Assembly (NCBI RefSeq): GCF_023638035.1
Contig: NZ_JAKRVX010000002.1
Location: 620,001-684,000, forward strand
DNA length: 64,000 bases
Direction: 5' to 3'
Origin: Natronocalculus amylovorans
GTDB lineage: Archaea > Halobacteriota > Halobacteria > Halobacteriales > Haloferacaceae
A program made the position numbers and the translations under genes. Position 1 is the first letter of the stretch. Every line of letters begins with the position of its first letter. Shown here piece by piece: positions 8,505-11,759 of the stretch. Below the pieces are notes generated by a model. That model was not told where the DNA came from. It was given only the letters and a program-made list of their open reading frames with translations, and searched no databases.

Positions 8505-8576
8505 GCCTGGGTAGCTTAGCGGTAAAGCGCGTCCTTGGTAAGGACGAGAGCCCGGGTTCAAATCCCGGCCTAGGCT
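8505..8576 (+). tRNA. tRNA-Thr (anticodon GGU)
   Basis: Seventy-two bases fold as a standard cloverleaf. The acceptor stem GCCTGGG pairs with CCTAGGC (one G-U), the anticodon stem CGTCC/GGACG encloses loop TTGGTAA giving GGU, and the T arm is CCGGG-TTCAAAT-CCCGG. The discriminator is U, usual for archaeal tRNA-Thr. No CCA is encoded and there is no intron. A CATAAAG element about 34 bases upstream may be the TATA box, and a run of T follows the gene. The accessory stretch to 12.3 kb begins just beyond. Confidence 0.97.
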
Positions 8577-9381: not shown

Positions 9382-10125
9382 CTACCGACACCAGCTCATC
9401 ACAACGTCTGTGATCGGCCGTGAGGGAGAGTTGGAGGACTCTGCATCGAGCTTCGAGACCGCAGCCGCCGAAAAGATGAGTCGCTTAGTTCCGCGGCGTT
9501 TCACGATTCGGACGCCTTCTTTCCCGAACTCGTCTAAGAAATTCATGACACGGGTGACGGTTTGGGTGTGTGGCGTCTGCCCTTCCTTTGCGTTCAGGAC
9601 AGTGCGGATCGTCCGTGAGTCGATCGCAAAGCCAGCCGGGACCTTCTGTGCATACTCAGCGATATCTTTGGCAATGAACTGTGCCCGCTGTTGATTCGCG
9701 GTGAGTTTCGAGACGGCTTTTGACGGGAGTCGAACGAGTTGCTGCAGCGGCGATCGGTTCGTGTCTGGGTCCTCTTCGCTACTGGAGGGCGTCTGCTCGG
9801 ATTCCAGCGTGTGAAGCCGCTGTTGGAGGTGCTTTCGGTGGTCGGTTGCGGCGTCAAGATCGGCTTCAAGGTCGTCGATCTTTGCTTCGTTTTCAGAAAC
9901 CAGCTGTTCGTACTGTTCGAGTTCGTCTTCTCGCTGTTTGAGCTGCTCTTTTTGGATTTCGACACGCTCTTCGAGAGCGTCACTTTCCTCTTCTCGCTGT
10001 TTGAGCTGCTCTTTTTGGATTTCGACACGCTCTTCGAGAGCGTCATTTTCCTGTTCAAGCGCACTAATCCGCTCTTCGAGGTCATCAATCCGATCGACCA
10101 GCTCTTCGATCAGCGACAGATTCAT
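9382..10125 (-). CDS. Coiled-coil protein with C-terminal winged-helix-like domain
   Basis: A 247-residue protein. Residues about 3-105 form a continuous heptad coiled coil rich in Glu and Lys, including a perfect tandem of a 21-residue unit (ALEERVEIQKEQLKQRE type). After a polar Ser/Glu linker, residues about 140-230 (TANQQRAQFIAKDIAEYAQ through RRGTKRLIFS) look like a helical plus winged-helix module that could bind nucleic acid, with a basic hairpin KRRGTKR. The ATG at 10125 follows a clear GGAGGGT ribosome site; the frame upstream is open but unlike protein. This resembles small DNA-binding proteins found on haloarchaeal plasmids and viruses, but I cannot name a family. Confidence 0.6.
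   Translation of the reverse strand: MNLSLIEELVDRIDDLEERISALEQENDALEERVEIQKEQLKQREEESDALEERVEIQKEQLKQREDELEQYEQLVSENEAKIDDLEADLDAATDHRKHLQQRLHTLESEQTPSSSEEDPDTNRSPLQQLVRLPSKAVSKLTANQQRAQFIAKDIAEYAQKVPAGFAIDSRTIRTVLNAKEGQTPHTQTVTRVMNFLDEFGKEGVRIVKRRGTKRLIFSAAAVSKLDAESSNSPSRPITDVVMSWCR
9926..10051 (-). repeat. 63-bp tandem duplication inside the coiled-coil gene
   Basis: Two directly adjacent copies of a 63-base unit (9926-9988 and 9989-10051) differ at only a few bases near their ends. The unit is a multiple of three and encodes 21 residues, exactly three heptads, so the coiled coil is lengthened in register. The near identity suggests a recent duplication by slippage or recombination. Confidence 0.85.
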
Positions 10126-10607
10126 TGTGTACCCTCCGTGAAAAACAGCGGTTGCGTGGCGAGACCTTTTTGCGTGGGTGGTGAAACTAGAGACATGCGG
10201 TTGGTTTCCTTTGACCGCACCGGATCCGTGTGCTATCACGGGTCCTTTTAGAAAGACCAAGTGATCCGGTGAGTCGTTAGTGTGAGTAGGTCGGTGCAGT
10301 TACTTGAATCTGTTTGCTTGGAGAGCGGTTGGGCTGTGAGTATTGCAGGTGTGCCGATCGGCGATTATGAACCTCCCAATGATTCGTTGTAGAATAAGGC
10401 TAACCAGGCCAATACCATCAATATCCAAGGACATAGACCCGCGGAATACACACTATTTTTCTCCTGAAGAGATCTCCTCAACAAATGTGGGTTCAATTGA
10501 GAGCAACACGTCCATGAACTACGGATGTGTAAGTATTATTTGAACTCCAGACCAGCAGATATATTCTATGTGATGCCACAATATACTGGTTTACGACACA
10601 AACCAAC
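10126..10607. other. Gene-free stretch holding a structured element
   Basis: About 480 bases between the start of the coiled-coil gene and the end of the HsdR-N gene. No open frame here has protein character. It holds the ribosome site and presumably the promoter of the coiled-coil gene and the junction element at 10218-10271. The right half, toward 10607, is AT-richer and appears non-coding. Confidence 0.5.
10218..10271. other. Three-way-junction inverted-repeat element
   Basis: A 54-base element in which nearly every base can pair. The outer arms CACCGGATC (10218-10226) and GATCCGGTG (10263-10271) are a perfect 9-base inverted repeat. Between them are two adjacent hairpins: CGTG/CACG with loop TGCTAT (10227-10240), and GGTC-TTT/AAA-GACC with one bulged C and loop TAG (10241-10258). 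Four unpaired bases close the junction. It lies 93 bases upstream of the coiled-coil gene start. It could be a structured leader or small RNA, a protein-binding site, or a replication/integration site of a mobile element. The structure is seen; the role is unknown. Confidence 0.55.
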
Positions 10608-11759
10608 TTACCAGTCACCAAGGAACTCAATTTCCATGTCGATATTATCCACGAGGTCGCGTAGATTATTCTGTTTTCCAGACGTACTAAGTGCAGTGTG
10701 CAGATAGTGGCCATCCACAAGTTCATATGCCCCTCGCATTTCGTCCCCATTTGGATGAAGCGGCTCTGTATTGATCAAACAGTTCTTCCGAGCATTGGAC
10801 GGAAAGTATGGAATTTCAATCTGCTCAGTCAGCGCATACTTGGTTATTAAATAGTCCACTGCGGCAGTCATATTCATATTCTGTTTTGTATGTGGCTCAG
10901 ATTCCGAATCAGGAACCACCGCTCCATCAGAAAACCGGATGACGTATCCTTCGAACCCGGTGTTGATCGTGTGAGAATCACCATCGTAAGATGCGGGAAG
11001 ATTCCCCACTGAATCAGTACTATCCTCGTCGTAAGATTGGGAAACCAGGATCGGTGACTCGGATGACGGTGTGGTATGACTCACAAACCGCCGTTGATCA
11101 TGTAGTAGTGTCACAAGATTTTGGACGAACTCGCGAGATTGCTGTGTCAGATCGATTGGGAGGTCTCCAACTGTTGATTCTATCGAAGCAACGATCGACT
11201 CCGTGAGTTGGTCTTCATTCGTTTTAACATCCTGAATCGCTTGGTTTGTGCGCCCAATCTGCTCTGCAACCTCGTCAGATTTCCCAGAGTGGATCGACTC
11301 CTTCGAGAGCAACGAAAGAAAGCTTGGGTCGATACGAAGATCATCCAAGTTGAATGTCAGCACAGACATCTCTTTGACACCGTTTTGATGACGATCTTTT
11401 GTAAGAACTTCAAATGACTCGCCATTTGTAAGAATTCCCCAATCGACAGCAAGCTCTTGTCGCATATAGCTCCGGAGTTGTCGCAGTTCGGTATCGGTGA
11501 GCGTTGCATGGATCGGTTTTGCTTCGACAAACACGACTGGTGAGTCACCGAGCATAAGCGCATAATCAACACGGGTATTTCCAGACGCCATTGGAACGGT
11601 GTACTCTAATACGACTTCAGACGAGTACAGGTCCCACCCCAACAATTCAAGAAACGGTTGAATGAGTTTGACTTTTGTATTCTCCTCATCCATTTGTGGA
11701 TTCGACTCGATGATTTGATAGCTTTGATTTATATATGCATCAATATCATGTTCATCCAT
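10608..11759 (-). CDS. Free-standing HsdR N-terminal (PD-(D/E)XK) nuclease-like protein
   Basis: A 383-residue protein whose first ~150 residues match the N-terminal nuclease domain of type I restriction R subunits: D65 in TRVDYAL and E79-A-K81 in FVEAK form the PD-(D/E)XK core, followed by the QLRSYM segment. No helicase motor follows. The middle is helical and Asp/Ser-rich, and the last ~120 residues (from FEGYVIRFSDG) form a separate domain of unknown role. No hsdM or hsdS gene is near. Such orphans are common in archaea and may be defence nucleases or remnants. Only one CGATCG occurs in 1,152 bases, far below neighbouring core genes, suggesting transfer. Confidence 0.75.
   Translation of the reverse strand: MDEHDIDAYINQSYQIIESNPQMDEENTKVKLIQPFLELLGWDLYSSEVVLEYTVPMASGNTRVDYALMLGDSPVVFVEAKPIHATLTDTELRQLRSYMRQELAVDWGILTNGESFEVLTKDRHQNGVKEMSVLTFNLDDLRIDPSFLSLLSKESIHSGKSDEVAEQIGRTNQAIQDVKTNEDQLTESIVASIESTVGDLPIDLTQQSREFVQNLVTLLHDQRRFVSHTTPSSESPILVSQSYDEDSTDSVGNLPASYDGDSHTINTGFEGYVIRFSDGAVVPDSESEPHTKQNMNMTAAVDYLITKYALTEQIEIPYFPSNARKNCLINTEPLHPNGDEMRGAYELVDGHYLHTALSTSGKQNNLRDLVDNIDMEIEFLGDW

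Follow-up and report, generated by a model that had tools for sequence, protein, structure and literature searches.

The window, i.e., the whole stretch of DNA under analysis (64,000 nucleotides from Natronocalculus amylovorans), carries on its minus strand a gene for a protein of 247 aa (9382–10125), assigned from plasmid homologues and structure prediction to a coiled-coil family with a winged-helix-like domain. The initial annotation had called this gene DNA-binding-like, in agreement with the predicted structure, in which a winged-helix-like domain comes after a long helix (AlphaFold mean pLDDT 76.6, pTM 0.38; matches to PDB entries were weak, none with E ≤ 0.001); on this model the protein is probably DNA-binding. 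Its Pfam and NCBIfam matches were all below the cut-offs, and PHROG matches were weak; phrog_12665 (function unknown) spans most of the homologous protein of a small Halomicrobium urmianum plasmid (L004). A direct repeat was noted by eye within the gene at 9925–10050, its two copies of about 60 bases being almost identical (ALEERVEIQKEQLKQRE repeated); it represents an in-frame duplication of the coil. At 10608–11759, just upstream of the leader described below, is a gene with a type I restriction HSDR_N domain; it occupies the spot which in Haloprofundus relatives is taken by regulators and a partner gene.

A compact three-way-junction element had been annotated upstream of the coiled-coil gene at 10218–10271, and these coordinates are right: a perfect outer inverted repeat of 9 bp (10218–10226/10263–10271) encloses two adjacent hairpins, and the distance to the coiled-coil ATG (10125) is 93 bases, as claimed. 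The estimate of about 40 paired bases out of 54 is true for the minus strand (20 pairs, 40/54), the plus strand having 17 pairs (34/54). Folding also bore out a stability beyond chance, since none of 200 dinucleotide shuffles was as stable on either strand (minus-strand RNA, 54 bases: ΔG −24.8 kcal/mol, z −5.00; plus-strand RNA: −21.6 kcal/mol, z −3.56). For a stretch of 94 bases around the element the minus strand remained exceptional (z −3.92, 0/200 shuffles as stable), whereas the plus strand was unremarkable (z −1.30, 23/200).

The element is larger than 54 bases. Its further parts, all on the minus strand, extend it to an AUG at 10196, and the conserved unit reaches to about 10160; as judged from the comparisons given below, the 54-base fold represents only the core of a 5' leader, which is composed of a TATA-like box, P0/P1 around P2 and P3, P4 and the AUG. 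The TATA-like box ATTCAAGTA (10301–10309) was identified from hexamer statistics over 62 leaders and predicts a transcript start at about 10278–10282. The P0 5' strand GACT (10272–10275) pairs with GGTC (10213–10216) across a bulged C10217, and the P1 5' strand CACCGGATC (10263–10271) forms a helix of 9 bp with the P1 3' strand GATCCGGTG (10218–10226), as supported by an alignment of 22 leaders. Enclosed by these are hairpin P2 (GGTCTTT ctaa AAGGACC, 10241–10258), the sequence of which varies between leader types while its pairing is kept, and hairpin P3 (CGTG atagca CACG, 10227–10240), which is invariant in 22 close relatives and covaries in a wider set. The strand GCGGTC (10213–10218) is shared: its partner is either the P0 5' strand or the strand before the AUG, ACCGC (10197–10201), which pairs with 10214–10218 and thereby forms the 3' side of P4, directly adjoining the start codon. 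Calculated energies were −30.9 kcal/mol for the P0 state and −27.8 kcal/mol for the P4 state of the window leader.

The AUG after P4 (GCGGU/ACCGC) opens a leader ORF, in the window of 24 codons (10122–10196, MSLVSPPTQKGLATQPLFFTEGTQ) and in its relatives of 23 or 24, with the consensus MSxNTPPTQKGLVAQPP..TEGHE. A motif, CAAAAAGGTCTCG (10160–10172), lies at +25 to +37 of this ORF, with the same spacing as in dissimilar gene groups, and a Shine-Dalgarno-like GGAGGG (10132–10137) is found 6 nt before the coiled-coil ATG. In 23 of the 24 leaders of this type, that of the window among them, the stop codon of the leader ORF and the start codon of the coiled-coil gene share bases in the sequence ATGA; the sole exception is a 423-kb plasmid of Haloprofundus halobius (L002, 5034–5131), where the leader ORF is shifted by one base relative to its 23 relatives. 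Among these 23, the length of the ORF varies by whole codons, which supports its translation.

Relatives of the leader and their genomic setting

When plasmids were searched at the DNA level with 261 bases around the element, two plasmids of Haloprofundus halobius were hit, and in both of them the match sits just 5' of a homologue of the coiled-coil gene. The coiled-coil family was present on 18 of 72,556 plasmid records, which were haloarchaeal, and protein searches of 170 genomes of the family yielded at least 39 places above 100 bits among the matches listed; the tally of 149 genomes with protein matches includes weak ones to the coiled coil. Named relatives include Haloferax, Haloprofundus, Halogeometricum and Halogranum. 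The leader was present in 24 of the 25 upstream regions that were read, out of 54 extracted; one of these 24, on a 4394-bp contig of Haloferax profundi (L016, 1–1120), keeps only the 3' part, the 5' half having been replaced by other sequence with a breakpoint in or near P3.

Twenty-two of the leaders were aligned, and 95.2% of the cells were paired. Column covariation in this closest set was not above that of shuffles (86/500 reached the score), because P1 is almost constant in its 3' strand; its 5' strand varies between pairing partners. One-sided changes in P1 give G-U pairs on the minus strand in 28 cells and A-C in 4, counted from related sequences and not as independent events, and 185 of 197 P1 cells are paired in the sense compared with 161 of 197 in the antisense. 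Since G-U is kept over A-C, pairing is better preserved on the coding-strand RNA than on its complement; by this measure the minus strand, i.e., that of the coiled-coil gene, is the functional strand, and the element works as RNA.

R1, a covariance model built from these 22 leaders, detected 24 places at E ≤ 1e-9 in the 170 family genomes; the 23 that were checked are upstream of a coiled-coil gene detected by protein, G043:C19 being the 24th place. Before the coiled-coil genes of most other extracted upstream regions the R1 search gave no comparably strong match. Weaker R1 matches were found at about 0.8 kb from some of the strong ones, on the opposite strand, and scattered elsewhere; those that were read have a common architecture with very different sequences. 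The genes behind such leaders comprise a divergent partner gene of 100 aa in the same region, SWIM zinc-finger genes, small zinc-finger-like ORFs and others, one of them weakly similar (below the cut-off) to DUF6998. A weak match with 72% GC before a 32-aa ORF (L140) was judged a false positive, and an alignment with three rows of false appearance (A3) was left out of model building.

Twelve divergent leaders, aligned by sequence only, yielded a second covariance model (R2). In their alignment 86.5% of the cells were paired, compared to 80.0% in shuffled alignments; there were 20 cells with double changes (shuffled mean 9.7), and the covariation score was 0.201 (shuffled 0.127). Each of these three values exceeded 500 of 500 shuffles; a fourth measure was reached by 5 and a fifth, the number of pair types, by 104 of the 500. 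The covarying copies proposed as a check in the initial annotation were thus found, including G-U-preserving changes, and this contradicts the lack of any homologue with compensatory changes, which had been named as its refutation.

At E ≤ 0.01, R2 matched 148 of 391 Halobacteria genomes in 55 of 86 genera, a count which rests on rough E-values, since matches were read only from about 34 bits up; 58 of the 170 family genomes had a match. In a phylum-wide sample 8 of 196 genomes were positive, all 8 belonging to the same family or order (168 genomes of unlisted make-up). Reading of 34 R2 matches showed an ATG at the end of 33, while the match in L178 runs six bases beyond its ATG; every ATG opens an ORF, partly by construction because R1 and R2 contain the ATG columns. 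P4 is modelled as pairs in R1, the columns before the AUG are held unpaired in R2, and the motif at +25 to +37 is outside both models.

The SWIM genes were followed further. From 34 records obtained by protein similarity, 10 plasmid SWIM genes were examined, of which one had an R2 match and a second was recognised as a member by eye only. This mostly negative result of a prospective test means that the leader marks some members of these gene families and not the families as such; in phages no SWIM protein was found. For a SWIM gene of Halalkalicoccus (L196, 514–609), the annotated GTG start is located 5' of the leader match and the leader points to an ATG at its own end, so that the start of this gene is probably misannotated.

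The coiled-coil gene occurs on plasmids from 4.5 kb (Halomicrobium urmianum) to more than 400 kb. The smallest (NZ_CP084094.1, 4491 bp) has six annotated genes, one of which is the coiled-coil gene; three others were scanned and none had a Pfam match above the cut-off. This plasmid is a candidate for a new replicon, and the coiled-coil protein may have a role in plasmid replication or maintenance, a suggestion derived only from the plasmid distribution of its gene. The copy in the window is on a 701-kb contig; it is the sole R1 match in its genome, which has no R2 match, and no partner leader was found near it. The hint at a mobile element in the initial annotation agrees with the facts in part: relatives are on plasmids, but others are on chromosome-sized contigs. 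Small draft contigs had no terminal overlap to support circularity. Among viral contigs, the coiled-coil protein was found at one locus, and two leader patterns had no exact match.

In Haloferacaceae we infer from the ATGA overlap that the leader acts on the coiled-coil gene by way of the coupled ORF. Other arrangements exist: in Halalkalicoccus, an R2-type leader is found before an ORF of 69 aa, two genes 5' of the coiled-coil gene (L006), or at about 1.1 kb upstream of that gene (L032), and in five further genomes of one genus (G254, G294, G297, G306, G312) the R2 matches share the strand of the coiled-coil gene at a distance of about 1.15 kb upstream. Divergent relatives of the coiled-coil gene in Halalkalicoccus, Haladaptatus and Haloquadratum (L007–L012) have other upstream hairpins, whose energies per 60 nt range from −21 to −43.5 kcal/mol. 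Just upstream of the TATA-like box, L015, L017, L052, L025, L063 and others have short palindromes (such as GTCACTAATTAGTGAC) or near-palindromes (such as GTTTACTTATTAGTAAAC), the half-sites of which are specific to each copy; this suggests replicon-specific repressors, and small winged-helix genes occur nearby in Haloprofundus plasmids.

Helix P4, the promoter-like box and the motif in the coding region

Statistics on P4 and the promoter were obtained with 62 leaders, namely 32 curated ones (from loci found by protein or by R1) and 30 of the 34 R2 matches, four of which (L156, L157, L180, L182) were dropped as duplicates of elements already included. A TATA-like hexamer was present upstream in 48 of the 62 (shuffled 26%) and at 27–33 nt before the leader start in 44 (shuffled 4.6%). 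From this spacing transcription would be expected to start at the edge of the element, and the leader to be transcribed. P2 and P3 stand side by side inside P1, which in most leaders is lengthened by P0.

A helix joins the bases just before the AUG to the 3' strand of the P1/P0 region. The mean complementarity score for this helix, P4, was 15.45, compared to 10.19 when strands were swapped between unlike leaders and 9.62 after shuffling, and a score of at least 12 was reached in 55 of the 62 leaders (25% swapped, 22% shuffled). Its sequence varies, e.g., GCGGU/ACCGC, GGUCUUC/GAAGACC, UGCUUCUG/CAGAAGCA, GCUUCGUG/CACGAAGC and GCUGUC/GACAGC, and a compensatory change distinguishes two near-identical leaders (GGGUG/CACCC in L138, GGCUG/CAGCC in L139). 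Inspected by eye, the sequences before the AUG correspond to the helix strand (ACCGC, AAGCCA, GAAGACCA, GAAGCA and similar); some linkers contain short purine runs. The gap between P4 and AUG was 0 nt in 42 and 1 nt in 20 leaders, in a search restricted to 0–2 nt. When 0–9 nt and a shorter partner region were allowed, the best helix ended 0–1 nt from the AUG in 42 of 62, compared with 29% of shuffles, and its scores were barely above those of shuffles (at least 12 in 37 of 62 vs 45%).

In 54 of the 59 leaders with a P4 of at least 4 bp, P4 and P0/P1 compete for one strand; in controls the same was true for 58% (847/1451), and in 5 of the 59, P4 does not overlap with P0/P1. Since strand sharing is common by chance and these five dispense with it, P4 could be a static part of the structure. 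With RNAfold (37 °C, not molar salt), 41 of 59 leaders favoured the P0 state by a margin above 1 kcal/mol and 11 the P4 state. P4 is retained where P0 has been lost, e.g., in L139 and L175. At the level of predicted pairing, two statements can be regarded as established: the minus-strand RNA forms a three-way junction of P0/P1, P2 and P3, plus P4 ending just before the AUG; and P0/P1 and P4 exclude each other in most leaders, since both require one and the same strand.

Downstream of the AUG, the motif [CG]AAAAGNGTAYCG at +25 to +37 is common to the 61 leaders that extend far enough. Its third codon positions are conserved even where the encoded amino acids differ (A27 in 50, T33 in 45 and C36 in 54 of 61); G37 is found in 60 of 61 and CG at +36/+37 in 54 of 61. 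When one member was taken per gene group (17 usable of 18; groups separated by BLASTP at E 1e-3 beyond residue 16, several of them being ORFs of 24–49 codons and too short to show similarity), the most conserved window of 13 nt started at +25, with 12.8 bits (lowest window 4.8), and CG at +36/+37 was present in 16 of 17 representatives, the group of L136 deviating. Pairing of the motif with unpaired leader positions (7.5) did not exceed that of swapped controls (7.85), and its complementarity to the host 16S locus was no better than that of shuffles. A recombination site at +25 to +37 was considered and rejected, since leaders which share a genome or plasmid, such as the two kinds in L003, differ in sequence.

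Function of the leader

Three functions had been proposed in the initial annotation, namely a structured leader, a small RNA, and a nick/replication or integration site of a mobile element. Strong support was obtained for the structured leader, from homologues with compensatory and G-U-preserving changes, from the promoter-like box upstream and from the start codon downstream. A small RNA received no support, as each leader read joins an ORF, although partly by construction, the models containing the ATG; nor did a nick, replication or integration site, since G-U pairs kept on one strand and a location at the AUG are indicative of mRNA. Origin, nick site and trans-acting RNA are disfavoured. 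In the broad sense the element belongs to the cis-regulatory mRNA leaders, having a conserved coding-strand structure directly 5' of ORFs and a promoter-like box, and the leader of the window probably controls translation of the short peptide gene and the coupled coiled-coil gene, as far as its arrangement indicates.

A conserved sense-strand leader, a helix against the start codon and a mostly competing helix together favour translational control in cis by a two-state switch between P0 and P4. We rank this reading first and hold it with slightly less than even confidence, the switch, its signal and its direction being proposed from sequence. Transcription would start from the TATA-like box at the 5' end of the element, so that the untranslated region would essentially equal the element. 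With P0 formed, the strand before the AUG would be free and the leader ORF would be translated; a ribosome terminating on it could then pass to the coiled-coil gene by ATGA coupling, aided by GGAGGG. With P4 formed, the AUG would be jammed against a helix and initiation would fall. A shared trans-acting factor or condition may shift the balance for all leader-bearing genes, and the motif at +25 to +37 may take part as a binding or pausing site; an obvious common metabolite is not apparent from the downstream genes.

Next in rank, and a possibility which we consider real but rather unlikely, is a constitutive platform for Shine-Dalgarno-independent initiation, or a stabiliser of the mRNA 5' end, in which the junction and P4 present the AUG or protect the end without any switching. 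The wider-gap and strand-sharing controls have weakened the claims on P4–AUG spacing and strand sharing and have moved weight from the switch to this explanation. It would account for a P4 that ends at the AUG above chance (0–1 nt in 42 of 62 vs 29%), is kept where P0 is lost, and has, as judged by eye, a helix strand instead of a Shine-Dalgarno sequence before the AUG, and also for a motif at a fixed position; a static platform, however, would make the strand sharing in 54 of 59 leaders (controls 58%) superfluous, and the motif has no 16S complementarity. Cleavage at the junction by an endonuclease such as tRNase Z, yielding a short or leaderless mRNA, appears improbable. Most haloarchaeal mRNAs are leaderless, tRNase Z processes tRNA-like elements in Haloferax, and such a process would be consistent with a compact three-way junction whose end lies at the AUG or close to it; but no tRNA fold is recognisable, ARAGORN calling only tRNA-Thr and tRNA-Lys in the window, the P3 loop mostly has 6 nt and not the 7 nt of a T loop, and P4 and the motif at +25 to +37 would be left unexplained.

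With a structured leader, a leader ORF coupled to the next gene and carriage of that gene on plasmids, the layout resembles that of IncFII/IncI plasmids, and a plus-strand counter-transcript could pair with the leader and block the coupled ORF in control of plasmid copy number; its promoter could be concealed in the stretch from +25 to +37, where third codon positions are conserved. This is quite improbable in our view, as the leader also precedes many other genes, some on chromosome-sized contigs, pairing is better kept on the sense strand, and no convincing opposite-strand promoter was seen, CGGTACGCTTTTC being a poor TATA box by eye. Least probable is an element acting as DNA, i.e., a replication origin, a nick, integration or recombination site, or a structured binding site. 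Relatives on plasmids, a perfect inverted repeat and a conserved module that ends about where gene bodies diverge would be compatible with it; against it are the acceptance of G-U mainly on one strand (28 vs 4 in P1), the position at the AUG, and leaders that differ in sequence within one genome or plasmid, which argue for a lack of active exchange. Equal conservation of both strands, as for an origin or nick site, was likewise not found in the P1 cells, and an integrated element at tRNA-Thr (8505–8576) was rejected, the last 16–24 nt of this tRNA having no second exact copy in the window.

The P0/P4 switch could be part of a wider scheme, which we regard as doubtful: a switchable, IRES-like archaeal module of junction, AUG-abutting helix and in-gene motif, present class-wide, would admit or turn away ribosomes at start codons that lack Shine-Dalgarno sequences and would unite many haloarchaeal accessory and plasmid genes, including that of a putative new plasmid replication or maintenance protein, in one regulon. 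The leader marks accessory genes that may be co-regulated, and the plasmid-borne coiled-coil family could be an unrecognised component of replicons. To our knowledge, few structured cis-regulatory RNAs are both widespread and confined to archaea, and the start of translation on leadered haloarchaeal mRNAs without Shine-Dalgarno sequences is an open question. The present leader, with model matches in 55 of 86 sampled genera, a position against the AUG and ready two-helix mutants, makes this question directly testable.

Comparison with known systems

In the window, Rfam 15 gave no family at gathering score except two tRNAs, and in ten leader-bearing loci nothing on any leader at E up to 5. The literature searched contained no description of the leader, with a partial coverage of RNA-motif papers that leaves novelty in print unproven, and in the text of a survey of 104 motifs (PMC2864571) the terms "haloarchaea" and "Halobacteri" are absent; the leader is apparently undescribed.

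In translational riboswitches and protein-responsive leaders, helices that exclude each other are present, with one adjoining the start site. Such helices are also predicted for the present leader (strand shared in 54 of 59, controls 58%); unlike the riboswitch class, it has no known ligand and no evident Shine-Dalgarno sequence to mask, and one architecture stands before many dissimilar gene groups, with a partner motif in the coding region. In IncFII/IncI plasmids, Rep synthesis is controlled by a leader peptide, the ORF of which overlaps the start. A structured leader and a short ORF overlapping the start (here ATGA in 23 of 24) of a plasmid-borne gene are common to both, the coiled-coil gene being a candidate rep gene; the present leader differs in being archaeal and in preceding other genes as well.

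The Rep-Arvir/SNJ2 origin has been described as a DNA hairpin located 3' of the gene for a rolling-circle endonuclease (PMC13107129). Both cases concern haloarchaeal mobile elements with a conserved folded element beside a gene, but the element in the window is an RNA leader upstream of ORFs. Closer is the work of Brenneis and Soppa (2009, PMC2636863), according to the abstract of which alteration of stem-loops in haloarchaeal 5'-UTRs abolishes translational regulation. Stem-loops of a haloarchaeal 5'-UTR in translational control are the shared feature; that system, as summarised there, consists of two single genes and also requires the 3'-UTR, and the abstract makes no mention of a shared three-way junction, an AUG-abutting helix or an in-gene motif. 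Structured leaders as such are already known; the present one differs from them in the position against the AUG, the partner motif within the gene and the breadth over dissimilar genes.
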